From Pseudonocardia sp. T1-2H (GTDB taxonomy: Bacteria > Actinomycetota > Actinomycetes > Mycobacteriales > Pseudonocardiaceae): a stretch of 64,000 nt of DNA. Positions within the stretch are counted from its first letter, which is position 1. Every line of letters starts with the position of its first letter. This document shows positions 28,368 through 54,722 of this stretch, one piece after another. Location of the stretch: NCBI RefSeq assembly GCF_038039215.1, contig NZ_JBBPCL010000001.1, positions 4,960,001-5,024,000 on the forward strand, read 5' to 3'. The translations under genes and the position numbers were made by a program. The notes below the pieces were generated by a model. It did not search any database. It was not told the origin of the DNA and worked only from the letters and a program-made list of their open reading frames with translations.

Positions 28368-28409
28368 GAGCCGTGCCGAAGGGGGCCGCCACCCCCCAAA
28401 CGGAGGGGT
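28368..28409 (-). promoter_or_regulatory. conserved palindromic promoter module A (kinase/regulator operon)
   Basis: Minus-strand ACCCCTCCGTTTGGGGGG, then a second C-tract (CCCCC), then CACGGCTC; 42 nt in all. It precedes the operon running from 28162 to 25425. It also abuts the end of the lone receiver gene, so it could double as that gene's terminator. Confidence 0.6.
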
Positions 28410-28822
28410 CAGCGCTCGCGGCCCAGCGCGGCGGCCGCCGCGGGCGACCATGCGGTTCCGCCCGAGGCCACCCGTCGGATGGCGTCCACCACCTCGTCGG
28501 GCGGGGCCGACTTCGAGAGGTAGCCGACGGCGCCCGCGGCGTGCGCCCCGCGGACGGTGTCGCCCGACACCGAGGACGTCAGGAAGAGGACCCGGGAACC
28601 GGGAACCGCGGCGAGGAGCCGGACGGTCGCGGCGACGCCGTCGACACCGGGCATGGCCGCATCCATCACGATCACGTGCGGTTCCCGGCGTTTCGCGGCC
28701 TCGACGCACTCGGCGCCGTCGGCGCACTGGCCCACCACGGTGAATCCGCCGACCGAGTCGAGCAGCGCGCTGAGGCCGGAGCGGACGGCGGCACTGTCGT
28801 CGACCAGCAGCACCCGGATCAC
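28409..28822 (-). CDS. single-domain response regulator (receiver only)
   Basis: A 137-residue protein made of a receiver domain only. Residues Asp8 and Asp9 (LLVDDS), the phosphorylation site Asp54 (IVMDAAMPG), Thr82 (FLTSS) and Lys104 (YLSKSA) are conserved. No DNA-binding domain follows; the last residues are Ala-rich. It is divergent from the regulator at 29060 and lies among three NarL-type systems, so it may act as a phosphate sink or connector between kinases. That role is inference. Confidence 0.85.
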   Translation of the reverse strand: MIRVLLVDDSAAVRSGLSALLDSVGGFTVVGQCADGAECVEAAKRREPHVIVMDAAMPGVDGVAATVRLLAAVPGSRVLFLTSSVSGDTVRGAHAAGAVGYLSKSAPPDEVVDAIRRVASGGTAWSPAAAAALGRER

Positions 28823-29000
28823 CGCGGAGCGGCCGGCGGCGGGTCCAGGGCGCCTCCCACCTCCGCAACGGTGTCCATGTGATCACCCCTCCCAGAGTCG
28901 ACCGGGCACACAATCCTCTTCCAGGGGCCGAGCCGGACATCAGGTCGGACTGCCGGGGCCGATCCGGCTAAAAGCGGTGCCGGCAAACGGGGTGAAGGTA

Positions 29001-29034
29001 ACACCTCCGTTTCCGGACCGACCCTCATCTTGAC
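29001..29034 (+). promoter_or_regulatory. diverged copy of the palindromic promoter module (B)
   Basis: Contains CACCTCCGTTTCCGG and CGACCCTCATC. The CCTCCGTTT core is the same as in modules A and F, but the G arm is weaker and the spacing is not kept. It lies 59 bp upstream of the regulator gene. A similar half (ACCCCGTTTGCCGG) reads on the opposite strand at about 28980-28995, toward the lone receiver gene. Confidence 0.35.
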
Positions 29035-29059
29035 GCGTCAACGACGGAAGGGGGGGCAC

Positions 29060-29742
29060 ATGGACGACGCGAGCGTGGGAATGACCCGCGTGGAGACGGC
29101 GCCCGCCGAGTTGCGGGTGCTCGTCGTCGACGACCACACGACTTTTGCCGAGCTGTTGTCCTTCGCCCTCTCGACCGAGCAGGGCCTGAGCTGTGTCGGC
29201 ACGGCCTCCAGTGCCGCGGAGGGGATCGTGCTGGTCCAGGAGCTGCGCCCGGACATCGTGATCATGGACATCGAGATGCCGCGCCAGGACGGGCTCGCCG
29301 CCTGCCGCAGTATCCGCGAGGTCGCCCCGGACACCGTGATCGTCGTCGTGACCGCGCACCGTGAGCCGGACTGGGTGGTGCGGGCGACCCAGGCGGGTGC
29401 CTCGGCGTTCATCCCGAAGAACGGTTCGCTCACCGAGATGCTGGACGTCCTGCGCCGGGCGCGCAGCGGGAGCATGCTCATCGCCCCGTCGGCGTTCGCC
29501 CTGACCGGCGCGGCGACCCGGCAGAACCCGGCGATGCCGAGCCTGACCCAGCGCGAGCGGGACGTCCTCGCCTGCCTGGGCCGCGGCATGGCGCCGAAGG
29601 CGATCGCGCGGGTGCTGGGCATCAGCGTGCACACCTGCCGCGGTTACGTGAAGTCGCTGCTGTCCAAGCTCGACGTCGAGCTCTCCAGCTGGAGGCGGTC
29701 GTCAAGGCGCAGGAGCTCGGCATGCTCGACGAGCCGCGATGA
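29060..29742 (+). CDS. NarL-type response regulator (one-base frame break near the end)
   Basis: A 227-residue regulator once one base is restored. The receiver has VVDDH, the phospho-Asp in VIMDIEMPR, Thr in VVTAH and Lys in FIPKNG. The LuxR-type helix-turn-helix is LTQRERDVLACLGRGMAPKA then ISVHTCRGYVKSLLSKL. The start is the ATG after a GGAAGGGGGG site. The frame breaks at 29685 (CTCC where CTCCC is expected). Restored, it ends LEAVVKAQELGMLDEPR with a TGA that overlaps the next kinase ATG by 4 nt. That tight junction supports a sequencing deletion. Confidence 0.9.
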
Positions 29743-31046
29743 GGGCCGGGTCCCCGGTCTCCCCGGTCCGGCGGCAGGTCACGACGTTCATCACGGTCGG
29801 CGTGGTCGTCCTCGCGGTGATCGCGTTCGGCGCCGTGCTGGCGAGCCGGATCGTCGCGCGGGCCGAGGCGCTCCGGGACGCCGAGCGCGTCACCGACCGA
29901 CTGGCCCACCTCGTCGTCGGACCGCTGCTGGTGGGCACGTTGGCCGAGGACCCCGGTGCCCGTGACCAGCTCGACCTGGCGATCTACAACCGGCTCGGCG
30001 ACGGCTCGATCAGCGAGGTCAACGTGTGGCGGCGGGACGGCACGATCGTCTACGCCGACCAGGCCCGCATCATCGGGACGCAGAAGGCACCGCCCGCCGA
30101 GGTCGTCGCGGCGATCGATCGGGGCACCGTGAGCTCCGAGCTCCAGGACTCCGACGAGGCGGGCGTGCTGCCGGGTGACGAGCGGTTCGTCGAGGTGTAC
30201 GTGCCGCTGGCCCTGGCCGACGGCAGCCGGTACGCGTTCGAGGCCTACTTCAGCTCCGCGCGCGTCGACAGCCAGGCCGCGTCACTGGTGGGGACGCTCG
30301 TCGCGCTCGCCGTCGTCCCGCTGGTCGTCCTGCAGCTGGTACAGCTGCCCATCGCGCTCTCCCTCGCCCGGCGCGTCCGCCGCCAGGAGGCGGAGCGGGT
30401 GCGGCTGCTGCAGCGGGCGCTGTCGTCGTCGGACAAGGAGCGCGCGAAGATCGCGGCCGACCTGCACGACGGGGTCGTGCAGGACCTCGCCGGGGCGGGG
30501 TACGCGCTCGCCGCACTGCGGACGTCGGTCGCTCCCGAGCGACGCGGCGTCGCCGACACGGTCGCGGGCGCGGTGCGTTCGGCGGTCGACGAGCTGCGCC
30601 ACCTGATGGTCGACATCTACCCGCCCGACCTCTCGGGGCCCGGCCTCGCCGTCGCCGTCGAGGGCCTCGTCCGGCCTCTGCGGGAACGGAACGTCGACGT
30701 CCTCGTCGACGTCGCGCCGCTGCCCGCGATGGATCCGGAGACGGCGGCGAGCATCTACCGGGTGGCACGCGAGTCCCTGATGAACGTCTCCAAGCACTCG
30801 GGGGCGTCCCGCGTGCAGGTGGTCCTCGAGGTCCTGGGGCCGGAGCAGGAGGCCATCCGGCTGCGGGTGTGCGACGACGGCGTCGGCATCCCCGCCGCGG
30901 AGGCGGACCGGCAGCAGGACGGTCACTTCGGTATCCGGATGCTCTCCGACCGACTCATGGACCTCGGCGGCCGCTTCTCCGTGATGCCCGGGCCCGCCGG
31001 CGGCACCGTCGCCGAGGCGGTGCTCCCGCTGACGGTCGTCGGCTGA
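29739..31046 (+). CDS. NarX/DesK-type sensor histidine kinase
   Basis: A 435-residue membrane kinase: TM1 about 18-38, an extracytoplasmic sensor of about 140 residues (NVWRRDGTIVYAD, a single-Cache-like pattern), TM2 about 187-208, HisKA_3 with the phospho-His in IAADLHDGVVQDLAGAG (about 246), and an HATPase_c domain with ARESLMNVSKHSG, CDDGVGIP and GHFGIRMLSDRL. The start ATG overlaps the (restored) stop of its partner regulator. It is less similar to the kinases at 26039 and 38746 than those two are to each other. Confidence 0.93.
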   Translation: MRAGSPVSPVRRQVTTFITVGVVVLAVIAFGAVLASRIVARAEALRDAERVTDRLAHLVVGPLLVGTLAEDPGARDQLDLAIYNRLGDGSISEVNVWRRDGTIVYADQARIIGTQKAPPAEVVAAIDRGTVSSELQDSDEAGVLPGDERFVEVYVPLALADGSRYAFEAYFSSARVDSQAASLVGTLVALAVVPLVVLQLVQLPIALSLARRVRRQEAERVRLLQRALSSSDKERAKIAADLHDGVVQDLAGAGYALAALRTSVAPERRGVADTVAGAVRSAVDELRHLMVDIYPPDLSGPGLAVAVEGLVRPLRERNVDVLVDVAPLPAMDPETAASIYRVARESLMNVSKHSGASRVQVVLEVLGPEQEAIRLRVCDDGVGIPAAEADRQQDGHFGIRMLSDRLMDLGGRFSVMPGPAGGTVAEAVLPLTVVG

Positions 31047-31087
31047 CCCCCAGATCTGGGGGTCCGACCCACCCCCACCCTCGGCTG
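31046..31087 (+). promoter_or_regulatory. conserved palindromic promoter module C (transglycosylase gene)
   Basis: A perfect 18-bp palindrome ACCCCCAGATCTGGGGGT starts at the last base of the kinase stop codon, followed by ACCCCCACCC and TCGGCTGCC. It spans 42 nt from the first A to GGCTG and lies 104 bp before the next start codon. A terminator role for the palindrome alone is possible, but the same layout recurs where no upstream gene needs one. Confidence 0.65.
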
Positions 31088-31149
31088 CCACCCGGCCGCG
31101 CTTCCGACCAAGATCGCCCGCGACGACACGGCGCGACGGTGGGAGACGA

Positions 31150-32487
31150 ATGCTCGAGCGGGCAGGCGTGCTACGCCGCCGGATGGGGATCGCACTCGTC
31201 GTCTGGATGGTCCTCGGCCCGGCGACCTCCTCGCATCCGTCGGTCGGGAGCGTCGTGGCGCCGGCCGCGTCCGCCCTGCCCGCCTCCCTCCCCGCCGGCA
31301 CAGGTGTGACCGGCGAAGGAACGGCCGGGAGTGGACCCGTCGACAGTGGACCCGTCGAGAGGGGACCCGTCGAGGGTGGACCCGTCGGCAGTGGAGCGAC
31401 GCGAAGGACGGTGACCGCGGTCGGGATCGCGCCGATGGTCCAGGACGCGTACCTCGCCGCGGAGCGGACGCTCGCCGGTGCGGTTCCGGGCTGCAAGCTC
31501 ACGTGGTCGCTGCTGGCCGGCATCGGCCGGATCGAGTCCGGCCATGCCGGCGGCGGCGAGGTCGACGGGGCCGGGAGGACGCTCGTCCCGATCCTCGGGC
31601 CGCAGCTCTCCGGGTCGAACGGGTTCGCGACGGTGTCGGACACCGACGGCGGATCGCTCGACACCGACCCTGCGTGGGACCGCGCGGTCGGCCCGATGCA
31701 GTTCCTGCCCGGCACCTGGCGCACATACGCGGCGGACGGCAACGGTGACGGGACCGCCGACCCGAACAACGTGTTCGACGCCGCCCTCACCGCGGGACGC
31801 TTCCTCTGCTCGGGTGGCAGGGACCTGTCCACAACAGACGGCGTGACAGCGGCCCTGCTGCGCTACAACGCCTCCATGGAGTACGTCCGAGACGTCCTCG
31901 CGGCCGCCGCCGCCTACGCGGACGGCCTCGTACTGCCACCGGCGCCGGTTCCCGCGGTGTCGGTGAGTGCCGCCAAGGTCCTCGCCGCCGAGGCCCCTCC
32001 GGTGCCCGCCGTGCCCCTTCCCGTCGCAGCGCCGGTGTCCGTGGCCGCCCCTTCCACGCCCGTGACCGGAGCCGCTGTGCCCGCGCCGGTCCCGGCAGCG
32101 CCCGTTCCCGCGGCGCCCGTCCCCGCGGCGCCCGTCCCCGCAGCGCCCGTCCCCGCGGCGCCCGTCCCCGCGACGCCCGTCCCCGCAGCGCCCGTCCTCG
32201 TAGAGACCCTGCCGCCGTCCGTCCCCGCAGAGGCGCCGCCGGCAGTCACCACCCCGCCGGCCCCGACGTCCGCACCCCCGACGTCCGCACCCGCCACGTC
32301 GTCCACGCCCCTGGCCGCGTCGACGTCCGCGCCGCCCGTCCGGCGCACCACGACGGTCCCTTCGGCCCCTGCGGCCGCCGTGTCGCCGAGCTCGCCCGCG
32401 CCCGATTGCTCAACTGCGGCAACGACATCCGCCGTGGCGACGCCCGCCTCGACGGAGCCCTCGCCTCCTCCTGTCACGCAGTGTTGA
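31150..32487 (+). CDS. secreted lytic murein transglycosylase with Pro-Ala repeat tail
   Basis: A 445-residue exported protein. An N-terminal hydrophobic segment (GIALVVWMVLGPATSS) acts as signal or anchor. A short Gly-Pro-Val repeat follows (about 60-75), then an MltB/SLT_2-type transglycosylase domain (about 95-255) with the catalytic Glu in GIGRIESGHAGG, the GPMQFLPGTW motif and RYNASMEYV. The C-terminal 190 residues are low-complexity Pro/Ala/Val/Ser/Thr, including seven APVPA units. It should cleave peptidoglycan in the envelope. The ORF runs right after the RR/HK pair and has promoter module C upstream. Confidence 0.88.
   Translation: MLERAGVLRRRMGIALVVWMVLGPATSSHPSVGSVVAPAASALPASLPAGTGVTGEGTAGSGPVDSGPVERGPVEGGPVGSGATRRTVTAVGIAPMVQDAYLAAERTLAGAVPGCKLTWSLLAGIGRIESGHAGGGEVDGAGRTLVPILGPQLSGSNGFATVSDTDGGSLDTDPAWDRAVGPMQFLPGTWRTYAADGNGDGTADPNNVFDAALTAGRFLCSGGRDLSTTDGVTAALLRYNASMEYVRDVLAAAAAYADGLVLPPAPVPAVSVSAAKVLAAEAPPVPAVPLPVAAPVSVAAPSTPVTGAAVPAPVPAAPVPAAPVPAAPVPAAPVPAAPVPATPVPAAPVLVETLPPSVPAEAPPAVTTPPAPTSAPPTSAPATSSTPLAASTSAPPVRRTTTVPSAPAAAVSPSSPAPDCSTAATTSAVATPASTEPSPPPVTQC
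31330..31389 (+). repeat. four 15-bp tandem repeats coding for Gly-Pro-Val
   Basis: Four imperfect 15-bp units built on AGTGGACCCGTCGAC, in frame in the N-terminal linker of the transglycosylase gene (SGPVD, SGPVE, RGPVE, GGPVG). Confidence 0.75.
32098..32202 (+). repeat. seven 15-bp tandem repeats coding for Ala-Pro-Val-Pro-Ala
   Basis: Seven near-identical 15-bp units (GCGCCCGTCCCCGCG type) in frame in the Pro-rich tail of the transglycosylase. The unit number may vary between strains by slippage. Confidence 0.85.
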
Positions 32488-32495
32488 TCGCACGG

Positions 32496-32537
32496 ACCCC
32501 CCAGAGTCGGGGGGCACGGTTCCCCCAACCACGGCTG
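32496..32537 (+). promoter_or_regulatory. conserved palindromic promoter module D (multicopper oxidase operon)
   Basis: ACCCCCC-AGAGTC-GGGGGG, then CCCCCAACC, then ACGGCTGCC; 42 nt from the first A to GGCTG. It lies 110 bp before the multicopper oxidase start. Confidence 0.65.
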
Positions 32538-32605
32538 CCCGGTACGGCCTCCTCGCCGCAAACTCGACCAGGCCGACAGTCCGAACCAAGTCGAGGAGTA
32601 CGACG

Positions 32606-34182
32606 ATGTCCACCCGGGCCGTCTCCCGTCGCGACCTGCTGAAGGTCTCCGCGCTCGGCGCCGCAGCACTGGCTCTCCCGTTCGAACGCGTGGTGCGTGC
32701 GAAGGGAATCTCCCGCATCGCCGAGAGCAAGCTGCCGAAGCCGTTCACCGTCCCCTTCGTCGTCCCCCCGGTCGCCAAGCCCGTCCGCAGCGACGGCACG
32801 ACGGACTACTACCAGATGACGATGCGCCAGGTGAAGGCCGAGATCCTGCCGGGCGTCGGAACCGACCTCTTCGGCTACGACGGCCAGGTCCCCGGCCCCA
32901 CGATCATGGCGAGCCAGGGCCGGCAGGTCGTCGTCCGGCACATCAACGGGTTGCCCGCCAAGCACCCGCGATGGTCGTACACGCCGTGGACGTCGGTGCA
33001 CCTGCACGGGTCCGCCTCGCTCCCGCAGTACGACGGCTACGCCAGCGACATCACCAACCCGGGCCAGTACAAGGACTACGTCTACCCGAACATGCAGCCC
33101 GCACGGACGCTCTGGTACCACGACCACGGCGCCGCCCACACCGCGGAGAACGCCTACATGGGCCTCGCCGCGATGTACCAGCTCACCGACGCGCAGGAGC
33201 AGGGCCTGCCGATCCCCACCGGCCGCTACGACGTCCCGCTGATCCTGTCGGACAAGATGTTCGCCGCGGACGGCCAGCTGATGTACGAGGACAACAGCCA
33301 CTCGGGGCTCTGGGGCGACGTGATCACGGTGAACGGCAAGCCGTGGCCGCGCATGCCCGTGGAGCGGCGCAAGTACCGGTTCCGGATCCTCAACGCGTCC
33401 CTCTCGCGCGGGTACCGGTACAAGCTCTCCACCGGGGAGCCGATGACGGTGATCGCGACGGACGGCGGGCTGATGAGCGCCCCGCAGCAGGTCGCCGAGA
33501 TCCGGCACGGCATGGCCGAGCGCTACGACATCGTGGTCGACTTCGCGAAGTACAAGATCGGGCAGCGGGTCGTCCTGCAGAACCTCGGCGTGAAGAACTC
33601 CACCGACTACGACACGACGAAGCAGATCATGGCGTTCGACGTGGCGGCGGAGCCGACCGACGGCACCAAGAACGAGGTCCCGTCCGTGCTGAACCCGAAC
33701 CCGTCCGCGATGGGGCTGACCGAGTCGATGTCCACGGCGACCCGCAAGCTGGAGGTCATCCGCGGCAACGGCCAGTGGTCCGTCAACGGCGTCACGTGGG
33801 AGCAGATCGTCGCCTCCGGCTACCGCAAGGTCCTCGCCAACCCGGCGAAGGACGCCGTCGAGGTCTGGGAGGTCACGAACAAGTCGGGTGGGTGGTTCCA
33901 CCCGGTGCACATCCACCTCGTGGACTTCAAGATCCTCTCCCGCAACGGCAAGCCGCCGCGACCCGAGGACTGCGGCCCAAGGACGTCGTCTACGTCGGCG
34001 AGAACGAGAGCGTCCGGCTGCTGATGAAGTTCGAGCACCAGACCGGCCGGTACATGGTCCACTGCCACAACCTGCCGCACGAGGACCACGACATGATGAC
34101 GCAGTTCGAGGTCGGCACCGCCGGGCCGGACCCGATCACGGCCGCGCCCGCCCTCCCGTGGACTGAGGGGCTGAAGCTGTGA
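32606..34182 (+). CDS. Tat-exported multicopper oxidase (one-base frame break)
   Basis: A three-domain, CotA/bilirubin-oxidase-like multicopper oxidase of 525 residues once one base is restored. It has a Tat signal (SRRDLLKVSALGAAALAL). Copper ligands are seen in HLHGSASLP, WYHDHGAAH, HPVHIHLVDF and HCHNLPHEDHDMM, so the type 1 and trinuclear centres are complete. The frame breaks near 33970, between ...PPRPED and ...LRPKDVVYVG; the last 70 residues, including HCH, lie in the shifted frame. It should oxidise phenols, metals or similar outside the membrane. The next gene overlaps its stop. Confidence 0.9.
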
Positions 34183-37239: not shown

Positions 37240-38454
37240 TCAGCCCGTGGCGTTGAGGGGGTAGTAGCGCACCCAGTCGACGTGCATCGCCGAGGGCGTG
37301 ACGCTGCCCCCCTTGGGGAACCAGTCGAGCTGGATCGTCAGGTGCATCGGGCCGGGCGGCAGCGTCGAGGTGTCGGTGGTGCGGAACCACTCCTGCCCGT
37401 CGACGAAGGCGGCGATGTGGTCGGGGGTCCACTCGACCGCCCAGTTGTGCCACTGCGTGGCGTCGATGTTCACCTGGCCGTGGAGCTGGGAGTTGTCGGC
37501 CCCGTAGTGGAGGAACATGTCCGTCTTCTGCCGGGCGGGGTCCGACATCTCCATGAAGTCGACCTCGCCGCCCTCGGGCCAGTTCTCCGCGTCGGGCCAG
37601 AGGAGCAGGAGGGCGTTGTAGGACGGGTCGCTCGCCGGGGCCATGACCCGGCCCTCCCAGCGGCCGTACTGCGCGCCCTTGCCCCAGGCCATCCCCCCGG
37701 TGGTGCCGGCGGAGTCGCCGCTGATGGTGAGGACCCCGTCCTTGATCGACGCCGCAGCCGGGCTGCGGGTGCCGTTGCCGGCGTGCCCGGGACCGTCGTA
37801 GAGGCCCCACTGGCCCAGGTCCCCGGTGAACTCGTCGCTGCGCGACGGCGTGCCCCACCCGAACTTCGCCGCCGCGGTGACGCCGGGGTCCGAGGTGGCC
37901 GTCACGGTTCCCGACGACGACGTGATGCCGGACGCGCCCGACCTGCCGGACGTCGTGGTGCCGTCGCCGCTCGTCCCCTGTCCCGCCGCGAGGCCGTCCG
38001 CGTAGCCCGCGGCGTACCCGGCCTGGTAGTCGGCGGAGGTGCTCGGGCCCGCGGTCGCCGGTTCGGACGTGGGGGCCACCGTCGCCGTGGTCTCGGGGGC
38101 GGTGGTCCCCGTGCCCTGAGCGGCGGGCGTCTCCGTGAGCGCCGCGGCCGGCGCGGGCTCCGAGGTGGGGGCGGTCGCCGAGGCCGTGGTGATCGTGGCG
38201 GACGAGGCCCCGCTCGCGATGTCCGCGGTGAGCGCGGGGTCGACGCTCACCGGCGCGGTGTCCGTGACGGTGCTCGCCGCCGGGTCCTCGGGGAGCAACG
38301 GCGCCGCGGCCGGGACCGTGCACGTGGAGGCGGGATCCGCCGCGGAGCAGGTGCCGGCCGGGACGAACGTCGCGGGCAACGTGGGCGCGACCGCGCCGGA
38401 GGCGACACAGACCGCTGCTGCCAGCCCTTTGACCACCGCGAACCTGACGACCAT
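37240..38454 (-). CDS. secreted GH16 family glycoside hydrolase
   Basis: A 404-residue exported enzyme. It has a signal peptide (about 1-30), a Thr/Ala/Ser/Pro-rich linker to about 190, and a GH16 beta-jelly-roll domain (about 195-404). The catalytic signature is EVDFMEM (nucleophile and acid/base Glu), preceded by WPDAENWPEGG. Family enzymes hydrolyse beta-1,3(-1,4)-glucans or related polymers. The N-terminal linker contains YQAGYAAGYADGLAAG, a short repeat. It is divergent from the kinase at 38746 and carries promoter module E. Confidence 0.9.
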   Translation of the reverse strand: MVVRFAVVKGLAAAVCVASGAVAPTLPATFVPAGTCSAADPASTCTVPAAAPLLPEDPAASTVTDTAPVSVDPALTADIASGASSATITTASATAPTSEPAPAAALTETPAAQGTGTTAPETTATVAPTSEPATAGPSTSADYQAGYAAGYADGLAAGQGTSGDGTTTSGRSGASGITSSSGTVTATSDPGVTAAAKFGWGTPSRSDEFTGDLGQWGLYDGPGHAGNGTRSPAAASIKDGVLTISGDSAGTTGGMAWGKGAQYGRWEGRVMAPASDPSYNALLLLWPDAENWPEGGEVDFMEMSDPARQKTDMFLHYGADNSQLHGQVNIDATQWHNWAVEWTPDHIAAFVDGQEWFRTTDTSTLPPGPMHLTIQLDWFPKGGSVTPSAMHVDWVRYYPLNATG

Positions 38455-38527
38455 CGCCTACTCCCCTCGCGCATCCGGCCGATCGGACACATCGACCCTC
38501 ACGCTGCTGCCTGGGCCGCTCCCGCGG

Positions 38528-38569
38528 CAGACCGAGGAGGGGGGTGGGAGCCCCCCGCACCTGGGGGGT
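38528..38569 (-). promoter_or_regulatory. conserved palindromic promoter module E (GH16 gene)
   Basis: Minus-strand ACCCCCC-AGGTGC-GGGGGG, then ACCCCCCTCC, then TCGGTCTG; 42 nt. It lies 115 bp before the GH16 start. Confidence 0.65.
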
Positions 38570-38591
38570 GCGTCCCGGACAGTGCCTGGCG

Positions 38592-38633
38592 ACCCCTCCG
38601 TTTGGGGGCCGATGGGCCGCTCGATTGAGGCTG
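38592..38633 (+). promoter_or_regulatory. conserved palindromic promoter module F (kinase at 38746)
   Basis: ACCCC-TCCGTTT-GGGGG, a weaker second tract, then GGCTG at exactly 42 nt. It points at the kinase gene and sits 22 bp from module E, which points the other way. Confidence 0.55.
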
Positions 38634-38745
38634 TTCGGCCTAGCCGATCGGACCGATCATGTGCGCTCGTGAGCTCCCACGTGGGTCCCGAACCGGGTCG
38701 CCGGTCCGTTCCGACCCCGGGACCGACGGCCGTCCCGGACACCGC

Positions 38746-40245
38746 ATGACCGACGTCGCGGGGCGCGTTCCGCCCGGTCCGCCCGGTCTCCGGATCATCG
38801 ACACGGGCACCCACCGGTCCCGGTCGGCCGGACGTCACAGCAGGGTCGAGGCCGACGCCGGCCCGCTCCCGGATCGGCCGGCCGCCTCGACCCGCCCGCC
38901 CCTACCCGACCCGTCCCGACCCGCCCCGCCCCGATCCGGCTCGGACGTCCGCGGCGCCGAACCGGCCGTGCGGACGTCCCGCATCGCCGTCCAGTACGTC
39001 GTCACGGCACTGATCTCCGTGCTGGTGGTGGCGCTGTGCAGCGTGTGGGCGAGCCGGGTCGTCGCCGCCGACTACGCCGTCGACGGCGCGATCGCCGGGA
39101 CCCAGCTCGCCGCCGACGAGGCGGTGGCCCCGGTCCTGACCGACGCCGTGCTCACCGGGGACCCGGCAGCGCTCGAGGGGCTCGACAGGGCGGTCCGGGA
39201 GAAGGTCCTGAACGTCTCGATGGTGCGGGTGAAGATCTGGGACGAGACCGGACGGATCCTCTACTCCGACGAGCCCGCGCTGATCGGAGAGCGGTTCGGG
39301 CTCGGTGCGAACGAGATCGAGGCGTTGCACGGCGGGGCCCCGGACGCCGAGATGTCGGATCTCTCGGCCCCGGAGAACCGGCTCGAGGACCGCAGCGTGC
39401 CCCTCCTCGAGGTCTACCTGCCGCTGCGCACCCCCGGCGGGGTGCCGGTGCTGTTCGAGGCCTACTCCCACTACGCCGGGGTCACCGAGGCGACCCAGCA
39501 GGTCTGGACCCGGTTCATCCCGCTCGGCGTGGGTGCTCTCGTCCTGCTGGAGCTCCTGCAGATTCCGATCTCGGCGGTACTGGCCCGCAGGTTGCGCCGG
39601 GCCCAGGTCCAGCGGGAGGAGATGCTGCGCCGGACACTGACCGCCCTCGAGGACGAGCGCCTGCGCATCGCCGCCGACCTGCACGACGGCGTGGTCCAGG
39701 ACCTCGCCGGCGTCGCCTTCGCACTCGGGGCGGCCGCCCGCGTCGGCGGCCCCGCCCGGGTCGCACCCGCACAGCTCGCCGAGTCCGCCGACACCGTCCG
39801 CCGGTCGGTCCGCGCACTGCGGTCGCTCCTGGTCGACATCTACCCGCCGAACCTCTACGCCGAGGGCCTGCCGGCCGCGCTGTCGGACCTGGCGGCGAGG
39901 CTCGTCCCGCCGGGCACGACGTCGGTCCTCGACGTCCGGGACCCGCTGCCCCCGCTCCGCCGGGAGCAGGTCGAGCTGGTCTTCCGGGTGGCCCAGGAGG
40001 GTCTGCGCAACGTCGTGCGGCATGCCGCGGCGAGTGTCGTGGAGATCGCTCTCGGCCAGGACGGCGGCGTTCTCGTCCTGTGCGTCACCGACGACGGGAA
40101 GGGGTCCGCGCCCGACCGGCTCGTCGCGTCCGGGCACCTCGGGCTGAAGGCGTTGAGCGGGCTGGCCGCGCAGCACGGCGCCGTGCTCGTCCTGGACTCC
40201 GCCCCGGGCCGGGGAACGGCCCTGCGGCTGGAGGTGCCCCTGTGA
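38746..40245 (+). CDS. NarX/DesK-type sensor histidine kinase
   Basis: A 499-residue membrane kinase. A Pro/Arg-rich cytoplasmic N-terminus of about 75 residues precedes TM1 (about 82-104), an extracytoplasmic sensor (MVRVKIWDETGRILYSDEPA, LFEAYSHYAGVTEATQQ), TM2 (about 260-282), HisKA_3 (LRIAADLHDGVVQDLAGVAF) and HATPase_c (QEGLRNVVRHAA, VTDDGKG, GHLGLKAL). It is a clear paralogue of the kinase at 26039; the sensor domains share long stretches, so the two may see the same signal. The start is the ATG giving MTDVAGRV; a frame 29 codons longer exists. Its regulator follows. Confidence 0.92.
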   Translation: MTDVAGRVPPGPPGLRIIDTGTHRSRSAGRHSRVEADAGPLPDRPAASTRPPLPDPSRPAPPRSGSDVRGAEPAVRTSRIAVQYVVTALISVLVVALCSVWASRVVAADYAVDGAIAGTQLAADEAVAPVLTDAVLTGDPAALEGLDRAVREKVLNVSMVRVKIWDETGRILYSDEPALIGERFGLGANEIEALHGGAPDAEMSDLSAPENRLEDRSVPLLEVYLPLRTPGGVPVLFEAYSHYAGVTEATQQVWTRFIPLGVGALVLLELLQIPISAVLARRLRRAQVQREEMLRRTLTALEDERLRIAADLHDGVVQDLAGVAFALGAAARVGGPARVAPAQLAESADTVRRSVRALRSLLVDIYPPNLYAEGLPAALSDLAARLVPPGTTSVLDVRDPLPPLRREQVELVFRVAQEGLRNVVRHAAASVVEIALGQDGGVLVLCVTDDGKGSAPDRLVASGHLGLKALSGLAAQHGAVLVLDSAPGRGTALRLEVPL

Positions 40246-40286
40246 CCGGGGAACGGGGGCCCGGTGCCCCGTGCATCGACGGCCCG

Positions 40287-40327
40287 TCCCCCGCATTGAG
40301 GGTCCGCGGTCCCCCAGCGATGGGCTG
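40287..40327 (+). promoter_or_regulatory. conserved palindromic promoter module G (regulator at 40433)
   Basis: TCCCCC-GCATTG-AGGG, then TCCCCCAGC, then GGGCTG; 41 nt. It lies 146 bp before the regulator start, between kinase and regulator genes, so the regulator can be expressed separately. Confidence 0.55.
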
Positions 40328-40432
40328 GACGGATCATGCCCGAGACCGCGATCTTGTACACCAGCGGGCCACCCGGCCCCGCCCCTGTCGGCCCCCGGCC
40401 TGCAGGACCACCCGACGACGGGGGCCACCGCG

Positions 40433-42117: not shown

Positions 42118-42155
42118 GCCCTCGCCGAGCCGGTGCCTCTGGGTGATCGGCCGAT

Positions 42156-42197
42156 ACCCCCTGCTTTGAGGGCCGGCCGACCCCCTCCGTCGGGCTG
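42156..42197 (+). promoter_or_regulatory. conserved palindromic promoter module H (peroxidase gene)
   Basis: ACCCCC-TGCTTT-GAGGG, then ACCCCCTCCG, then TCGGGCTG; 42 nt. It lies 112 bp before the peroxidase start. Confidence 0.65.
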
Positions 42198-42267
42198 CCC
42201 CCGGCGCCGCCCCCGTTGCGACAGTCGTCCTGGCGTCGGGACCGTTCGCACCACAGCAGGGCAGGCA

Positions 42268-43956
42268 ATGACAGAGGACTGGAAATGCGGCGGAAGAGCC
42301 GACCCCACGAGGGGGAACGACTCCCGACCCGTCCGCCGTGGAGTGTCGCGCCGGCGGATGCTTGCCGGCTCTGCGCTGCTGGCCGCGGCAACGGTCGTCA
42401 CCGGCGGCGCGTCGGAGGCCCTGGCGGCGACCGGTCCCGTGCAGGTACCGACGCCCCCACCGACGCCGCGACCGCCCGTGGGACCGGCGGACGGCAGCCC
42501 GCTGCCGGGTGTGGCGCGTAGCAGGCACGCCGTCGGTGACCCCCGGGGCAGCGACGTCGTGGCCAGGTTCGGCCGGGCGCGCGAGGCCCGCTTCGGCACC
42601 ATGTTCAAGCAGCTCACCGGGTTCGCGCCGGACGACGACCTGCTGGTCGGGCTGTCGGAGAGGATGGTGGAGGCCCGCGGCGCCGAGGACGACATCCGGC
42701 CCGACGGGCTGGACAACCCGGACATGCCGGCCGGGTTCATCTACCTGGGCCAGTTCATCGACCACGACATGACCCGGGACCCCACGCCGCTGGCCGACCA
42801 GCGCGCCGACCCCCGTGGGCTGACCAACTTCGACAGCCCGCGGTTCGACCTCGGCTCCGTCTACGGCGACGGACCCGCCGCGAACCCCGAACTCTACGAC
42901 CCGCAGCGGCCCGGTTACCTGCTGCTGCGCCAGAACGCCAACGGCCTCGAGGACCTGCCCCGCGGCGCGAACGGCTCGGCGTTCGTCGGGGACCCGCGCA
43001 ACGACGAGAACCTGATCGTCGCCCAGATGCAGATGGCGTTCATCAAGCTGCACAACCACTTCATGGACACCGAGAAGAACTTCACCCGCGCCCGGCAGCA
43101 GACCCGCTGGCACTACCAGTGGGTCATCGTGAACGACTTCCTGCCGCACGTCGTCGGTCGGCAGCTTCTCGACGAGATGATCTTCGCCCTGGGCCGGCGG
43201 ACCCGGGCCCGGACGCTGTTCTACCGGCCGGGGAACCCGCTGCGGCCGATGATGCCGATCGAGTACTCCGTGGCCGCCTACCGCTGGGGACACAGCGGCA
43301 TCCGCGCCGAGTACGAGATGCACGACACGCCGCTGTCGCCCAATCCCGCGGTGCTGCCGATCTTCAGCACCGAGACCGGCCCGAACCCCCGCGACCTGCG
43401 AGGCTCCCGCCCGCTCTTCACCGACGCCACGGTCGACTGGAACTACTTCTTCGACATCCCCGGCGTCCGGCCGCCCGACGACCGCAACATGGCACGGCTC
43501 ATCGACACCCAGGTCGCGCGGCCGCTGCATGACCTGCCCGACTCCGTGGTGGCCCACACCCCGGGCGCGATCATCGCGCTGGCCCAGCGCAACCTGCTGC
43601 GGGGCAAGCGGCTCGGGCTCCCGTCCGGCCAGGACGTCGCCGCCGCGATGCGCACCCGGGTTCCGACGATGCCCGCCCCGCTCACGAACGACCAGCTCGG
43701 GTTGGCCGACCCGCGGTGGGGAGGCAAGGCGCCACTGTGGTTCTACTGCCTCCGGGAGGCGAAGCTCGGTGGCGGGCGCCGTCTCGGCCCGGTGGGCGGG
43801 CGGATCGTCGCCGAGGTCATCCTCGGGCTGATGCAGATCGACCTCGGGTCGTACTGGAACACCCCCGCCGGCTTCACCCCGGTCGGCGGCCCGTCGTTCC
43901 GGATGGGCGACCTCATCCGGCTGGCCGGGGCGCCCGTGGTGGTGCCCGCCTCCTGA
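42268..43956 (+). CDS. Tat-exported animal-type haem peroxidase
   Basis: A 562-residue secreted enzyme of the animal haem peroxidase (myeloperoxidase-like) superfamily. It has a Tat signal (SRRRMLAGSALLAAATVV). The distal-His region is YLGQFIDHDMTRDPTPLA, and the proximal-His region AAYRWGHSGIRAEY matches the family FRxGH motif. Such enzymes oxidise halides or phenols with H2O2; bacterial members can form protein-haem ester links. The start is the ATG giving MTEDWKCGG. It lies between a Rieske protein and a cell-wall hydrolase, convergent with the latter. Confidence 0.88.
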   Translation: MTEDWKCGGRADPTRGNDSRPVRRGVSRRRMLAGSALLAAATVVTGGASEALAATGPVQVPTPPPTPRPPVGPADGSPLPGVARSRHAVGDPRGSDVVARFGRAREARFGTMFKQLTGFAPDDDLLVGLSERMVEARGAEDDIRPDGLDNPDMPAGFIYLGQFIDHDMTRDPTPLADQRADPRGLTNFDSPRFDLGSVYGDGPAANPELYDPQRPGYLLLRQNANGLEDLPRGANGSAFVGDPRNDENLIVAQMQMAFIKLHNHFMDTEKNFTRARQQTRWHYQWVIVNDFLPHVVGRQLLDEMIFALGRRTRARTLFYRPGNPLRPMMPIEYSVAAYRWGHSGIRAEYEMHDTPLSPNPAVLPIFSTETGPNPRDLRGSRPLFTDATVDWNYFFDIPGVRPPDDRNMARLIDTQVARPLHDLPDSVVAHTPGAIIALAQRNLLRGKRLGLPSGQDVAAAMRTRVPTMPAPLTNDQLGLADPRWGGKAPLWFYCLREAKLGGGRRLGPVGGRIVAEVILGLMQIDLGSYWNTPAGFTPVGGPSFRMGDLIRLAGAPVVVPAS

Positions 43957-44005: not shown

Positions 44006-44015
44006 CCCGGCCCGG

Positions 44016-45382: not shown

Positions 45383-45418
45383 ACACCCAAATTTCGGGGT
45401 CGTCCCCGCCGCCGGCTG
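45383..45418 (+). promoter_or_regulatory. shorter variant of the palindromic promoter module (I1)
   Basis: ACACCC-AAATTTC-GGGGT, then CCCCGCC, then CCGGCTGAC; only 36 nt to GGCTG. It lies in the 343-bp divergent region between the NlpC/P60 gene and the second multicopper oxidase, 115 bp before module I2. Confidence 0.45.
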
Positions 45419-45497
45419 ACGCGCCGTCCCACGCTCGACCGGACATAACGTCCCGAAATGACATATCGGCGAATCATGCTTTTCCGCCGATCTCCGC

Positions 45498-45538
45498 ACC
45501 CCTATTTGCGGGTATCTCGCCCACCCCAAGAACGGCTG
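45498..45538 (+). promoter_or_regulatory. conserved palindromic promoter module I2 (second multicopper oxidase)
   Basis: ACCCCT-ATTTGC-GGGT, then CCCACCCC, then ACGGCTGAC; 41 nt. It lies 150 bp before the oxidase start. Confidence 0.55.
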
Positions 45539-45647
45539 ACGCAAATCGAGCGCGAGACGCATTCTTGCTCTCGACCGGCACGCGAACAGAAGGCTCGTAG
45601 GAGCTGAGCCCGCCGGCGCGGAGTCGTCCACGGAAGAGGTCGAGAAC

Positions 45648-47873
45648 ATGCCCGACGGGTCCGAACGGAATGGCGTCGATACCGGAATCGAAGACTCGAC
45701 GAATGTGCCCGTGCACAGGAAACTGATGTCCCGGCGGGCCATCCTGCGGATCGGCGCGGCCGGAACGGCGGCCGTCGGCCTCCAGGCCGCCCGGTCACTG
45801 CTCGTCCCCTCGCTGTCGCAGGCCGGCCTGCTCTCCCCCGACGGCGTCGTCGGGGTGGCGTCGATCGCGTGGGCCGACGCCATCTACACCGAGGCCTTCC
45901 CGACGAGCCCGCTGATCCTCTCGCCCTTCACCGACAAGCTGCCGATCCCGAAGGCGCTGGCCCCTGTGCCGCAGTCGGTGTACAGCGGCTGGGCCAAGCC
46001 CCCCGGCCCGGGGAACGGGCAGCAGAGCTCGCTGGGCAACGAGCGGCACCAGAAGTGGCCGGACTCCGTCGGCTATCCGGACCCGATCGTCTACAAGATC
46101 GACGTGCTGGTGCGGGGCCACGCGTTCACGACCTCGAAGGTGCTGCCGATCGACGCGAACGGCAAGCCGACGGTCTCCTTCGACGTCGCCGGCAAGACCT
46201 ACGCCGCGGGCACCCAGCGGACGCTCCCGCTGAGCACCATCTACGGCTTCAACGGCAGCTTTCCCGGGCCGCGGATCAACGCCGAGTACGGCAAGCCTGT
46301 GCTCGTCCGTTTCGAGAACCACCTCGACGAGAACCCGCTGGGCCTGGACCGCCAGGATTTCGGTGCTCCGGACTGGTCCTTTCTGACCCACCTGCACAAT
46401 GGGCACACCGCGCCGGAGAGCGACGGCAACCCGCATTACACGATGAAGTACGGACCGAAGTCACACGGTTACCTGCCGCAGATGTTCGTCGACAACCTTT
46501 ACCTGAACTGGCCGGCCGGTGGTGACGACCGGGAGAAGCAGAGTTTCTTCTGGTTCCACGACCACCGGATGGACCAGACCGGCTCGAACGTCTACAAGGG
46601 CATGGTCGGCCTCTACCCCATCTACGACCCCAAGGGCGGTCTGGACATGGGTGACGAGCGCCAGGGCTTCCGGCTCCCCGGCGTCCGCACGAACAACCCG
46701 GACGGCTCCTTCGACGTCGACTACGACATCCCACTGGCCATCTTCGACGCCCGGCTGGACGACGGCGTCACGCTCCACAACGACATCCACGACAAGGAGT
46801 TCCCGGACGCCAAGAACCCGAAGGTGCATCCGGAGTGGTGGGGGAAGACGTTCTTCAAGCACTTCCCGAACCACGGCTTCGTCGGCGACATCTTCACGGT
46901 CAACGGCACGGCCTACCCGACGCTGGAGGTGAAGCGCCGCAAGTACCGCTTCCGCTTCCTCGACGCGTCGGTCTCCCGGATCTACGAGTTCAAGCTGATG
47001 AGCTCGACGCAGGGCCCGAAGTCCGCGGCGTCCCTCGGCTACTCCGACACCGAGCTCGAGGGGCAGTACCGCATCCCCGACGGGCAGCAGTGCATGAAGT
47101 TCACCCAGATCGCCTCGGACGGCGGGCTGCTGCCGTTCCCGATCACCCGGGACTCGTTCGAGCTGTGGCCGGCTAAACGGCGGGAGTTCGTCGTCGACTT
47201 CACCCGGTACCAGGACGGCTCGCCGACGACCAAGGGCGACGTGATCTACCTGACCAACGTCATGAAGATGCCCGACGGGCGGATGTGGTCCACCTCGTCG
47301 CGCGCCTCGGCCGACCCCGACTACAAGGTCCCGGTCATGAAGGTCGTGATCGGTGACAACGCCCCCGACGACAGCCAGATCCCCACGCAGATGCGCCCCC
47401 TGCCGCCGCTGCCGAGCAACTGGCAGAACATGCTCGACGACCGGCTGATCTTCGAGGTGAAGCGCGGCAGCGCCGGCGGCGAGACGGAATGGCTCATCAA
47501 CGGCAAGCAGTTCGAACCCGCGACGGTGTCCACCAGCCTGAAGAACAAGGCGGGCAACGCGCCGCCGGCCCAGCAGAAGATGAACAGCTTCAACCTGTGG
47601 GAGATCCGCAACGGCGGCGGCGGCTGGGTGCACCCGTTCCACCTCCACATGGAGGAGCACCGCACGGTCATGCGCAACAACAAGGACGTGACGGGCGGGG
47701 ACCCGTCGCATCCCGACGACGTCTCGCGGGAAGACCTCGTGGCGCTCGACCCGAGCGAGTCGGTGATCATCTACCGCGGCTTCCGCGACTTCGTCGGCCC
47801 GTACGTCGCGCACTGCCACAACCTGGCCCACGAGGACCACTCCATGATGTTCGGCTGGGAGATCACGCCGTAG
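45648..47873 (+). CDS. Tat-exported multicopper oxidase, CotA/MoxA-like
   Basis: A 741-residue secreted oxidase, larger than the first one. A Tat signal (SRRAILRIGAAGTAAVGL) lies about 28-50. All four copper regions are present: THLHNGHTAPESDG, FWFHDHRMDQTGSNVYKGM, HPFHLHMEEH and HCHNLAHEDHSMM (type 1 axial Met). The HNGHTAPESDG pattern is typical of CotA/MoxA-type laccases and Mn(II) oxidases, so metal or phenol oxidation outside the cell is likely; the exact substrate cannot be told. It is followed 38 bp later by a 4-TM protein. Confidence 0.92.
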   Translation: MPDGSERNGVDTGIEDSTNVPVHRKLMSRRAILRIGAAGTAAVGLQAARSLLVPSLSQAGLLSPDGVVGVASIAWADAIYTEAFPTSPLILSPFTDKLPIPKALAPVPQSVYSGWAKPPGPGNGQQSSLGNERHQKWPDSVGYPDPIVYKIDVLVRGHAFTTSKVLPIDANGKPTVSFDVAGKTYAAGTQRTLPLSTIYGFNGSFPGPRINAEYGKPVLVRFENHLDENPLGLDRQDFGAPDWSFLTHLHNGHTAPESDGNPHYTMKYGPKSHGYLPQMFVDNLYLNWPAGGDDREKQSFFWFHDHRMDQTGSNVYKGMVGLYPIYDPKGGLDMGDERQGFRLPGVRTNNPDGSFDVDYDIPLAIFDARLDDGVTLHNDIHDKEFPDAKNPKVHPEWWGKTFFKHFPNHGFVGDIFTVNGTAYPTLEVKRRKYRFRFLDASVSRIYEFKLMSSTQGPKSAASLGYSDTELEGQYRIPDGQQCMKFTQIASDGGLLPFPITRDSFELWPAKRREFVVDFTRYQDGSPTTKGDVIYLTNVMKMPDGRMWSTSSRASADPDYKVPVMKVVIGDNAPDDSQIPTQMRPLPPLPSNWQNMLDDRLIFEVKRGSAGGETEWLINGKQFEPATVSTSLKNKAGNAPPAQQKMNSFNLWEIRNGGGGWVHPFHLHMEEHRTVMRNNKDVTGGDPSHPDDVSREDLVALDPSESVIIYRGFRDFVGPYVAHCHNLAHEDHSMMFGWEITP

Positions 47874-52416: not shown

Positions 52417-52441
52417 CCGGGCCGCAGCCGTTCCCTCATGA

Positions 52442-52477
52442 CCGAGGGCCCCGTCGCGTCTGCGACGGGGCCCTCGG
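52442..52477. terminator. bidirectional terminator
   Basis: A perfect 16-bp stem (CCGAGGGCCCCGTCGC and its complement) with a 4-nt loop, between the DUF4177-like gene and the convergent FN3 protein gene. Confidence 0.85.
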
Positions 52478-52495
52478 GATCAGGCTGCAGTGGGG

Positions 52496-54589
52496 TTACG
52501 GCACTGGCACCGCCGCGCTCTCGCTACCCGTGCTGAGCTTGGCGACGACCTGCGTCGCGGGCCGGGCGTTGAGCTTGGCGCCGCTGCGGGCGTCGAAGCT
52601 GGAGCCCGCCGGGGGTGCGGCCGACGTCAGCGCCGCATTCGAGATCAGCGGCTTCGTGGTGTCGGCCACCAGCTTGCCGGTGGCGGCGTCCGTCTTGGCC
52701 GCATAGATCGTGACCGTCCCGGTGGTCGCCGAGGTGCTGCCGATGACCCGCAGCTCGGCACCGGCCTTCCAGGTCACCTTGCTGATGGCCACCGTGTCCG
52801 CCACCGCCGTCACCGTGGCCGAGACCTGGGCGGACTCGGGGCTGACGGCGCCCGCGGCGTTCTTGGCGGTCACGGCGAACTTGTAGTCGCCGGCGGCCAG
52901 GCCGGTGATCACCTGCGCGGTGCCGGTGTTGGCCGGCGGCTGCGTCGCGAGCTTGGTGGTGCCGTCCGCCTGGTAGGCGACGACCTGGTAGCCCGTGGCG
53001 TTCGGGACCGCGGTCCAGGCCAGGGTCACCTGGCCCTGACCGGCCGTGGCCTTGAGGCCGGTCGGCCCCGTGGTCGTCCCCGCGGCGGCGTCCGGCGTGT
53101 ACCACCCGTCCTGCGCCGCCTTCGCGCTGTTGCCCGCGGTGTCGAAGGCGGCGAAGCTCAGGTTGGTCGCCTTCGTGATCGCGACCGGCCCCGTGTACAG
53201 CTTGGCCGTGCTGGAGGGGCCGTCACCGAAGGTCGCCAGCGAGCCGTCGTCGGTGTAGAAGATCTGGCCGTTGTCGCTGGTCGCCGTCACCGAGGTGGCC
53301 GCGGCGGGTGCGGCCTCGGTACCGCCGGCCGGGGTGACGGTGAGGGTCGGGATGACCGTGTCCTTGGGTGCGCCCGTGGCGGTGCCCTCGACGGCGCCGA
53401 TCGTGTACGGGGCGCTCAGGGCCGTTCCGGCGAGGGAGCGGACCTCGACGTCGTAGGTCACGGCCGGGTCCAGGGCGAGGGTGGTGCTGGTGGCGGCCGC
53501 ACCGGTGCGGACGACGACCCCCGGCTTCTCGCCCGCGGCACTCGCCGTGGTGGCGATCGCCTCGACGCTGTAGCCGGAGACGGCGGTGGCGCCCGGCTGC
53601 GCGGTGGCGGCCGACCAGGTGACCTTCGCCGACGTCTTGTCCGCCGACCGGATCACCGCGGCGGTCCCCGCGGCCGGGGCCGCGGCGTTGCCGGGGCCGG
53701 CGGGGCAGCCCCCGAAGCCCGGGCCGCCGACCTCGCCCGCCTCGGCGATGCTGACGCCCTGCCGGTTGCCTGCGGGGTCGACCGTCTGCCACTGCAGCAG
53801 GCGTTGGCCCCCGCCGTCCCTGGCGACCGTGGCGACCGCCGGGTCCTCGAACACGTAGGTCGCCGTGAACGTCTTGCCGTCGGCGCCGACCGCGAGCTTG
53901 GACTTGTAGGTGCCCTGGGTCCCCGTCTTGGGCGCGGTGACGAAGTCACCCGGGACGGCCCGGATGTCGCGCTTGCCCAGGCTGGTCCGGAACCCGTCGG
54001 GGTTGACGATCCGCTGCTCCATGTTGGCGGGGTCGGGTGCGTTGTTGGCGGGGTCGATCACGCCCTCCACGGTGAGGGTGTCGTTTTCCACCGTGGTCGT
54101 GGTGATGGTGTTCGTCGTCGGCGTGGGAACGGCGCCCGCGAAACCCGCGCTCTGCACGGTGCTGTCGCCGAACGCCGTCCCGCCGAACTTGATGGTGGCG
54201 ACGTCGCCGGGCTGGATGTCCGGGGTGACGTTCACACCGGTGCCTGCGCCCCAGCAGACGCCGCCGGGGTGGTTGATCTCGAACGCCACGTCGCCGCCGG
54301 AGACGATGCCCTGGGCCGAACCGACGATCTGACCGGCGCGGGTCAGCTCGATGGTGCCGACCTCACCGGCGTGGCTCTGGTAGCCCTCGATCGTGATGAA
54401 GTCACGGTTGGGGAAGACGAGCAGGTTGTCGGGCGCCGTGGGAATGGCCGCGAAGGCCGTTCCCGCGGTGAGGACGCCGGCCGTCGTGGCGACGAGCGCG
54501 ACCGCGGTCAGTCCGGCGAGCGCGCGTCGGCGGCGCCCACGGGGGTGGGGGCCCGGAGCGGTCGCGCCGGGTGGCGGGTGGTGGATCAT
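52496..54589 (-). CDS. large secreted surface protein with FN3 and CHB/HEX-type domains
   Basis: A 697-residue exported protein. The signal peptide (about 20-48: LAGLTAVALVATTAGVLTAGTAFA) is followed by a novel-looking N-terminal region with two Cys (HPGGVCWGAG...GFGGCPAG), then an FN3-like domain (about 310-400), a chitobiase C-terminal-like region (DNGQIFYTDDGSLATF, about 440-510), a second FN3 domain (about 520-600: PTGLKATAGQGQVTLAWTAV) and a C-terminal beta domain. No sortase motif or membrane anchor is seen. Likely an extracellular binding or matrix protein. Module J lies upstream. Confidence 0.8.
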   Translation of the reverse strand: MIHHPPPGATAPGPHPRGRRRRALAGLTAVALVATTAGVLTAGTAFAAIPTAPDNLLVFPNRDFITIEGYQSHAGEVGTIELTRAGQIVGSAQGIVSGGDVAFEINHPGGVCWGAGTGVNVTPDIQPGDVATIKFGGTAFGDSTVQSAGFAGAVPTPTTNTITTTTVENDTLTVEGVIDPANNAPDPANMEQRIVNPDGFRTSLGKRDIRAVPGDFVTAPKTGTQGTYKSKLAVGADGKTFTATYVFEDPAVATVARDGGGQRLLQWQTVDPAGNRQGVSIAEAGEVGGPGFGGCPAGPGNAAAPAAGTAAVIRSADKTSAKVTWSAATAQPGATAVSGYSVEAIATTASAAGEKPGVVVRTGAAATSTTLALDPAVTYDVEVRSLAGTALSAPYTIGAVEGTATGAPKDTVIPTLTVTPAGGTEAAPAAATSVTATSDNGQIFYTDDGSLATFGDGPSSTAKLYTGPVAITKATNLSFAAFDTAGNSAKAAQDGWYTPDAAAGTTTGPTGLKATAGQGQVTLAWTAVPNATGYQVVAYQADGTTKLATQPPANTGTAQVITGLAAGDYKFAVTAKNAAGAVSPESAQVSATVTAVADTVAISKVTWKAGAELRVIGSTSATTGTVTIYAAKTDAATGKLVADTTKPLISNAALTSAAPPAGSSFDARSGAKLNARPATQVVAKLSTGSESAAVPVP

Positions 54590-54681
54590 CGGTGCTCCTC
54601 GGCTCCGGGTTCGACCTCGTCACGCCCCTGACAAGGAGCGCAGTCGATGGGATGAGAGTCCGCCGGAAACGCTTTGTTCAG

Positions 54682-54722
54682 CAGCCGCGAGCGGGGGGTG
54701 CAAGCACCCCGCAAATGAGGGA
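54682..54722 (-). promoter_or_regulatory. conserved palindromic promoter module J (FN3 protein gene)
   Basis: Minus-strand TCCCTC-ATTTGC-GGGG, then CACCCCCC, then CGCGGCTGC; 41 nt. It lies 133 bp before the FN3 protein start. Confidence 0.55.

Follow-up and report, generated by a model that had tools for sequence, protein, structure and literature searches.

We investigated a 64,000-nt stretch of the 6,998,239-base Pseudonocardia sp. T1-2H genome (contig NZ_JBBPCL010000001.1, here C1; C1:4960001-5024000, hereafter the window), in which a short module recurs before genes for two-component systems and exported proteins. The repetition had been noticed in an earlier note on this DNA, and we confirmed it: when read out and aligned, all ten sites (at 28368, 31046, 32496, 38528, 38592, 40287, 42156, 45383, 45498 and 54682) lie at the positions and in the orientations given there, and the lengths given also hold in the alignment (42 nt in six copies, 41 nt in three and 36 nt in one).

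The leftmost module (28338..28411, minus strand) stands before the operon 28195-25425, which encodes an unknown protein, kinase 26383 and regulator 25425; kinase and regulator make up the second two-component system of the window (25425..27414, minus strand), a proposed target. To its right lie the NarL-type response regulator 29060 (29060..29720, plus strand; helix HTCRGYVK), which we propose as the factor acting on the module, and its partner histidine kinase 29739 (29739..31046, plus strand). Plus-strand modules at 31044..31117 and 32494..32567 precede a transglycosylase-like exported protein (31150..32487) and a multicopper oxidase (32606..34024) exported by twin-arginine translocation (TAT), and the orthologous promoter of the latter is kept in Pseudonocardia relatives and in Geodermatophilus. 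Two modules are arranged back to back, one (38498..38571, minus strand) before a GH16 exported protein (37240..38454, minus strand) and the other (38590..38663, plus strand) before kinase 38659 (38659..40245); a further plus-strand module (40284..40357) precedes response regulator 40433, the partner of this kinase in the third two-component system (38659..41060, plus strand), again a proposed target. The plus-strand modules at 42154..42227 and 45495..45568 precede a haem peroxidase gene (frame 42085..43956), the true start of which probably lies beyond 42228, and a second multicopper oxidase (45648..47873), respectively. The 36-nt variant copy (45383..45419, plus strand) has no -10 element at 25/26 nt and is perhaps an auxiliary upstream site. 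The last module (54652..54725, minus strand) precedes an exported surface protein with a CHB_HEX/Fn3-associated domain (52496..54589, minus strand). These exported proteins, oxidases and the peroxidase are predicted targets.

Several of these genes are frame-broken relative to Pseudonocardia sp. RYN_114, a metagenome-assembled genome (MAG) with sites syntenic to those of the window (G047; G and L numbers denote genomes and loci, and G000 is the genome of the window). The breaks lie near 29677-29684 (regulator 29060), near 40843 (regulator 40433) and at 33970 (multicopper oxidase 32606, with its C-terminal end lost), and kinase 26383 (26039-27414) probably carries another; their number suggests assembly errors rather than decay.

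The repeat is real and reads CCCC-N7-GGG-N10-CCCC-N7-GG-CTG, with GGTCTG at 38528 and GGCTC at 28368 as variants, whereas the formula first proposed for it, ACCCC(C/T)-N6-GGGG, literally fits 3 of the 10 sites. A single palindrome alone is uninformative because its frequency in the window equals chance (ACCCC-N7-GGGG with one mismatch: 57 occurrences, 56.6 expected), and we rejected it as a search pattern. The "weak copy" reported at 29001 was not recovered, no model matching there up to an expectation value (E) of 10. The sites had been described as non-coding; the first base of the 31046 site is the last base of the kinase stop codon.

We trained a sequence-only model (R1) on the ten window sites; in this and all other genome searches, a limited number of first-look candidates was scored. 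In the genome of the window, R1 scored 150 of 14,665 such candidates and ranked the ten sites, its own training set, on top (30.4 to 21.6 bits), followed by C1:6247009 at 13.3 bits. The latter, also met independently by pattern search, is the sole further genomic copy found and lies 1.2 Mb away (L068 7003-7076); the claim that no copies occur outside 28-55 kb is therefore right for the window and wrong for the genome. It precedes a gene for a 660-residue exported protein, homologues of which also bear the module in G049 (77% identical) and in G003, G009 and G047 (48-49%). In the pattern search, the reversed pattern used as a control gave one match per strand, and the forward pattern also hit C1:3565172; we set this match and one at 39466, within a gene, aside as probable chance matches. 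We observed no scatter of the module before housekeeping genes across the genome, the outcome that the earlier note had named as its refutation.

In a leave-one-out experiment with an ungapped 44-nt matrix on both strands of the window, seven of the ten sites were beaten by training sites only and two by one extra position, and the 36-nt variant at 45383 failed. A second model (R2), built from 17 sites in relatives and the C1:6247009 outlier, recovered 10/10 window sites (E 5e-6 to about 0.25) above all non-training matches in this genome, although this test is not fully independent because its 17 sites had been found with R1.

We then analysed the anatomy of the module over 44 sites of the window and its relatives. 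This set leaves out the nine G047 sites, which nearly duplicate those of the window, L056 (nearly identical to L054), L064-L066 (without -10), L106, L107, L111-L113 and L148 (weak or partial), the Geodermatophilus and Streptomyces near copies L119-L121, L123, L125, L136 and L139, and the second sites of L122 and L126; the L059 site was re-anchored by 6 nt, since an earlier GGCTG had been taken. Counted from the C of CTG, the first box is conserved as CCCC at -37 to -34 (77-95%) and GGG at -26 to -24 (86-98%), and the second as CCCC at -13 to -10 (77-95%) and GG at -2/-1 (98 and 91%, two columns favoured by the anchoring), which in the column table amounts to two boxes CCCC-N7-GGS with a spacing of 24 bp. 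CTG is followed, after 18-19 nt, by a -10 element (C/G)AnnnT in 42/44 sites.

This -10 stretch lies outside both the R1 and R2 models and was not used in site finding. Its A....T pair falls at offset 25 from the C of CTG in 25 sites and at offset 26 in 17 (one site in both), and at any other offset from 5 to 59 in 0 to 4 of the 44. In a 42-site alignment (the 44 minus window site 45383 and L117 8460, both without -10), the element was present in 42/42 sites; over 5000 shuffles, it averaged 1.85 sites and never exceeded 8. The base preceding its A was C in 20, G in 20 and A in 1 of 41 sites. Within the window, nine of the ten sites have it at this distance (25 or 26 nt past the C of CTG), with 45383 as the exception; a fixed promoter element had been proposed, but its -10 had been overlooked. 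With the A of the -10 placed at -11, CTG occupies -36 to -34 and the box centres lie near -66.5 and -42.5; at start sites predicted in this way, the geometry is that of class II promoters, with a box near -41.5/-42.5 overlapping the -35. From the module end to a possible start codon (start codons chosen by eye), we counted 60-112 nt in 8/9 window promoters, and at least 171 nt to the start codon used at 28368. On sequence grounds, the module reads as a whole promoter, with two tandem operator boxes of which the second is fused to the -35.

We investigated the module in related genomes. At E<=0.1, R1 matched 10/62 genomes of the genus, seven of them convincingly: G000 (10 sites), G047 (9), G003 (P. 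acidicola K10HN5; 4), G009 (P. bannensis DSM 45300; 4), G049 (Pseudonocardia sp. RYN_179, a MAG; 3), G050 (1) and G040 (1, with further sites in other scans). Over 14 genomes, R2 gave best E values of <=1.3e-4 in the seven module genomes and from 0.016 to no match in the other seven. The sites of G003, G009 and G049 are spread over several contigs. On other contigs, the module also precedes divergent orthologues of multicopper oxidase, peroxidase, GH16 protein, kinase 38659 and FN3 protein. With downstream genes called by a simple frame score, 20 of 38 sites outside the window (48 examined altogether) precede a homologue of a window protein: multicopper oxidase 32606 (6), multicopper oxidase 45648 (1), peroxidase (2), GH16 (3), NlpC/P60 (2), kinase 38659 (2), FN3 protein (2) and receiver/regulator genes (2).

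Outside the genus, the module adjoins the orthologous 29060/29739 gene pair in Geodermatophilus, Streptomyces and Actinotalea. In three Streptomyces, the first gene 3' of the module encodes CopC-CopD (Pfam for L131; L136 and L139 69% and 87% identical), which, together with the multicopper oxidases, hints at copper enzyme supply; the remaining targets do not demand copper. Geodermatophilus loci (e.g. L119 8481-9029) carry a single-domain receiver gene with its own module directly before the regulator-kinase pair.

The window encodes two types of two-component system, 29739/29060 on the one hand and 26383/25425 and 38659/40433 on the other. Regulator 29060 combines a receiver domain (PF00072) with a LuxR-type helix-turn-helix (PF00196; frame 29030-29965, PF00196 over 46 residues, then the frame break), and its G047 copy aligns over its full length with the structures of NarL, VraR and DevR. 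Kinase 29739 is of the NarX/DesK type (HisKA_3 and HATPase), its modelled kinase region matching DesK and VraS chains. Its model also contains an extracytoplasmic alpha/beta domain between two membrane helices (predicted at about residues 37-172; predicted local confidence, pLDDT, mostly about 90 over residues 50-130 and 150-170), and this well-scored domain makes an outside ligand likely. A fold search with the kinase model matched the kinase part only; judged by eye from its order of helices and strands, the sensor domain may have a PDC/Cache fold.

Within the genus, regulator 29060 has matches above 200 bits (54% identity or more) in 7/62 genomes, the same seven that carry convincing modules, and the next matches (G027, G038, G001 and G006) reach at most 112 bits. 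Kinase 29739 behaves similarly, with orthologues at >=42% identity only in these seven genomes and 37-39% in G013 and G019. Using kinase 29739 together with three of its orthologues as queries against named genomes, we obtained 302 kinase loci and took the best 80. R1, applied to 21 of these 80 that lie outside Pseudonocardia, found the module at 15/16 loci with a 29060-type regulator (Geodermatophilus, Blastococcus, Streptomyces, Actinotalea and MAGs; the miss, L130, is a 3.6-kb contig) and at 0/5 of the other type, and in 13 of the 15 positive loci the module starts 10-119 nt after the kinase match. A third model (R3), which includes the -10 and was trained on some of the loci it later scored, found the module among the same best 80 in 18/21 loci with a T-x-RGY helix (misses L118, L128 and L130) and in 0/59 without this type, one partial match at L148 being set aside. 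The T-x-RGY string also appears in L145, L155 and L156 among the 59, where we took it as a chance frame because their listed helix is TVKTHL.

Over 397 genomes of the order, R3 matched 34 at E<=0.01, among them 21 at E<=1e-4, and regulator 29060 (G047 copy as query, E<=1e-45) was found in 23. The regulator was present in 18/21 genomes with a module at E<=1e-4 versus 5/376 others (Fisher p 7e-24, ancestry ignored; the two draws of 397 were assumed to be the same set because the listed handles agree). Furthermore, the recognition helix RGYVK was kept in 21/21 regulators compared, and the other type is without it. The proposal of tandem sites for a resident NarL-type regulator joined to a fixed promoter element is thus favoured by the evidence, the element being a -35 (CTG) with a -10 at constant spacing, and among the three resident NarL-type regulators, 29060 with kinase 29739 fits best by sequence comparison. 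Regulators 25425 and 40433 look like targets, because modules precede their operons and related regulators in other places are found with no module.

We consider it likely that the module constitutes an entire promoter, about 75 bp long, and is activated by a single two-component system, 29060/29739, a reading that builds on the computed sites, geometry, conservation and co-occurrence and from which we infer binding, dimer arrangement, activation rather than repression, and a cascade. In this mechanism, membrane kinase 29739 would phosphorylate and thereby activate regulator 29060, which would bind as two dimers on the two tandem CCCC-N7-GGS boxes 24 bp apart. The upstream box near -66.5 is the better palindrome, and the right half (GGC) of the downstream box near -42.5 would run into the -35 (CTG), so that RNA polymerase would be recruited by class II activation to a core promoter whose -35 is poor and whose -10 is (C/G)AnnnT. 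The predicted targets comprise the two multicopper oxidases, the haem peroxidase, the transglycosylase, the GH16 protein and two exported surface proteins, of which one is encoded 1.2 Mb away, and further the two other two-component systems; since modules precede both of these, the design may be a cascade. In Geodermatophilus and at L129, autoregulation would be possible because the module precedes the gene just upstream of the regulator.

Several observations weigh against control by 29060/29739. In the window, the model scan found no module before the 29060 operon, and the regulator gene itself is frame-broken in this assembly. L148, a locus of the other kinase type, carries the partial match mentioned above (model positions 4-41, 38 nt, E 0.002); G014, G019 and G022 each show one weak R1 match, partial or without -10, and G001 a partial palindrome (R2 E 0.016). 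Modules at E<=1e-4 occur without a close regulator (<=39% identity) in G308, G219 and G173, and, conversely, G176 and G190 have a 43-44% relative with helix RGHVK and no module match at E<=0.01. The co-occurrence of module and regulator also depends on ancestry, and the training sites of R2 and R3 had themselves come from R1 searches. At the G219 locus (L241 7780-8644), which has no RGYVK regulator close by, we observed a lone receiver gene and, 39 nt ahead of the module, a 73-residue stretch resembling the end of kinase 29739; this kinase-like remnant suggests that the system was lost there.

Other explanations assign the module to a different factor. The second type of system (25425, 40433) could be self-activating through it and act on other genes as well, with 29060 a mere neighbour; autoregulation of this kind predicts the modules before both window operons of this type, orthologues of kinase 38659 are preceded by modules in G049 (L059) and G003 (L063), and regulators at least 60% identical to 25425 occur in 6/7 module genomes of the genus. 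We nevertheless judge it unlikely, because G040 has modules and no regulator above 47% identity to 25425, G013 (63%) and G019 (60%) have such a regulator but lack a convincing module (with no match up to E=1 next to their systems, L108 and L109), and the full module accompanies 29739-type kinase loci rather than any of the 59 of other type among the best 80 of 302. A promoter of an alternative sigma factor, formed by GGCTG and the -10 with the C/G boxes secondary, would account for the base preceding the -10 A, which is C or G in 40/41 sites and never T, unlike the usual TAnnnT pattern, and for the sigma-70 consensus scan, which returned 0 promoters in 28000-46000. Such a promoter appears very improbable given that CTG agrees with the last two bases of a TTG -35 at an ordinary spacing of 18-19 nt, that the conserved gene unit contains no sigma gene, and that the upstream boxes are as strongly conserved as the core promoter.

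With two boxes placed at a constant distance upstream of the -35 and an unobstructed core promoter, the layout is that of an activator, and we give hardly any credence to palindromes acting as operators of a metal repressor such as CsoR, as an RNA element or as a dispersed repeat. The C/G palindromes and the copper enzymes (two multicopper oxidases, and CopC-CopD in Streptomyces) do recall CsoR operators; however, many targets are non-copper proteins, each site precedes a gene rather than being scattered, and an Rfam scan of window positions 25000-56000 gave no family at gathering score.

Control by 29060/29739 can be compared with known actinobacterial systems. DevR, whose structure (3c3w) is among the solved homologues of regulator 29060, recognises a box sequence that differs from the CCCC/GGG boxes. 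Promoters of DevR/DosR in Mycobacterium tuberculosis are described, in the part of the source available, as having two or more closely packed sites bound cooperatively, the proximal one overlapping the -35 (PMC3029386), and to this extent they resemble the predicted layout here, with a NarL-family regulator, tandem sites and a proximal box on the -35. The present system differs in its CCCC/GGG half sites 7 nt apart, its boxes 24 bp apart, its kinase and its genes. RamA of Corynebacterium glutamicum is a LuxR-type regulator and no receiver-domain response regulator. Its common sites, according to passages on RamA, are A/T/C-GGGG-N and A/T/C-CCCC-N (PMC4847777); the likeness, between LuxR-type actinobacterial regulators, is confined to the CCCC/GGGG half sites, and these passages name no fixed two-box spacing, unlike the module. 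In the same species, the CopRS two-component system activates a secreted multicopper oxidase gene in response to copper, with CopR binding a direct repeat, TGAAGATTT-N2-TGAAGATTT, in one intergenic region, as given in the excerpts of that study (PMC3140484). The likeness lies in an actinobacterial two-component system with a secreted multicopper oxidase as target, here a predicted one; CopRS, as portrayed in those excerpts, differs in its motif, its single target region and its copper signal, and its direct repeat is absent from the aligned modules. A literature search, which mostly missed subscription journals, yielded no description of this module or regulon.

Other genes of the window were observed alongside the proposed targets. 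Inside the cluster and without a module, a TetR regulator is divergent from a rubber-oxygenase-like (MPAB/Lcp) protein (35309-37220). A short signal peptidase I-like protein (34879-35202, 107 aa), which matches the C-terminal part of its family only, is conserved near the multicopper oxidase in several genera. A single protein (48551-51013) joins PAP2 and lysylphosphatidylglycerol synthase membrane domains, and beyond the regulon region lies an ECF-type sigma factor with a SnoaL-like tail (62467-63390).

The kind of mechanism proposed here is already known; what is new is this regulon, which is strong by the completeness of the set and its spread and not by its principle. We tentatively suggest, with a probability somewhat below even, that it constitutes an undescribed actinobacterial regulon common to Pseudonocardia, Geodermatophilaceae, some Streptomyces and Actinotalea. 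In it, a single extracytoplasmic sensor would switch on wall hydrolases and surface proteins along with secreted copper oxidases and peroxidases by way of a rigid cassette set before different exported-protein genes in each lineage, and in Pseudonocardia it would also govern two further two-component systems in a cascade. The "envelope/redox" purpose, which rests on gene annotation, is putative. Regulator, kinase, operator and core promoter can be tested together as a set; each genome offers about a dozen predicted targets, relatives for comparison are numerous, and the fixed geometry offers a clean case of two-box reading by NarL-type activators; furthermore, the tie between the RGYVK helix and the C/G box could help predict targets of other orphan regulators. 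If true, the regulon would give a function to a common group of multicopper oxidases and peroxidases that soil actinobacteria secrete, and would represent a programme dedicated to the oxidative remodelling of the cell's outer layer.

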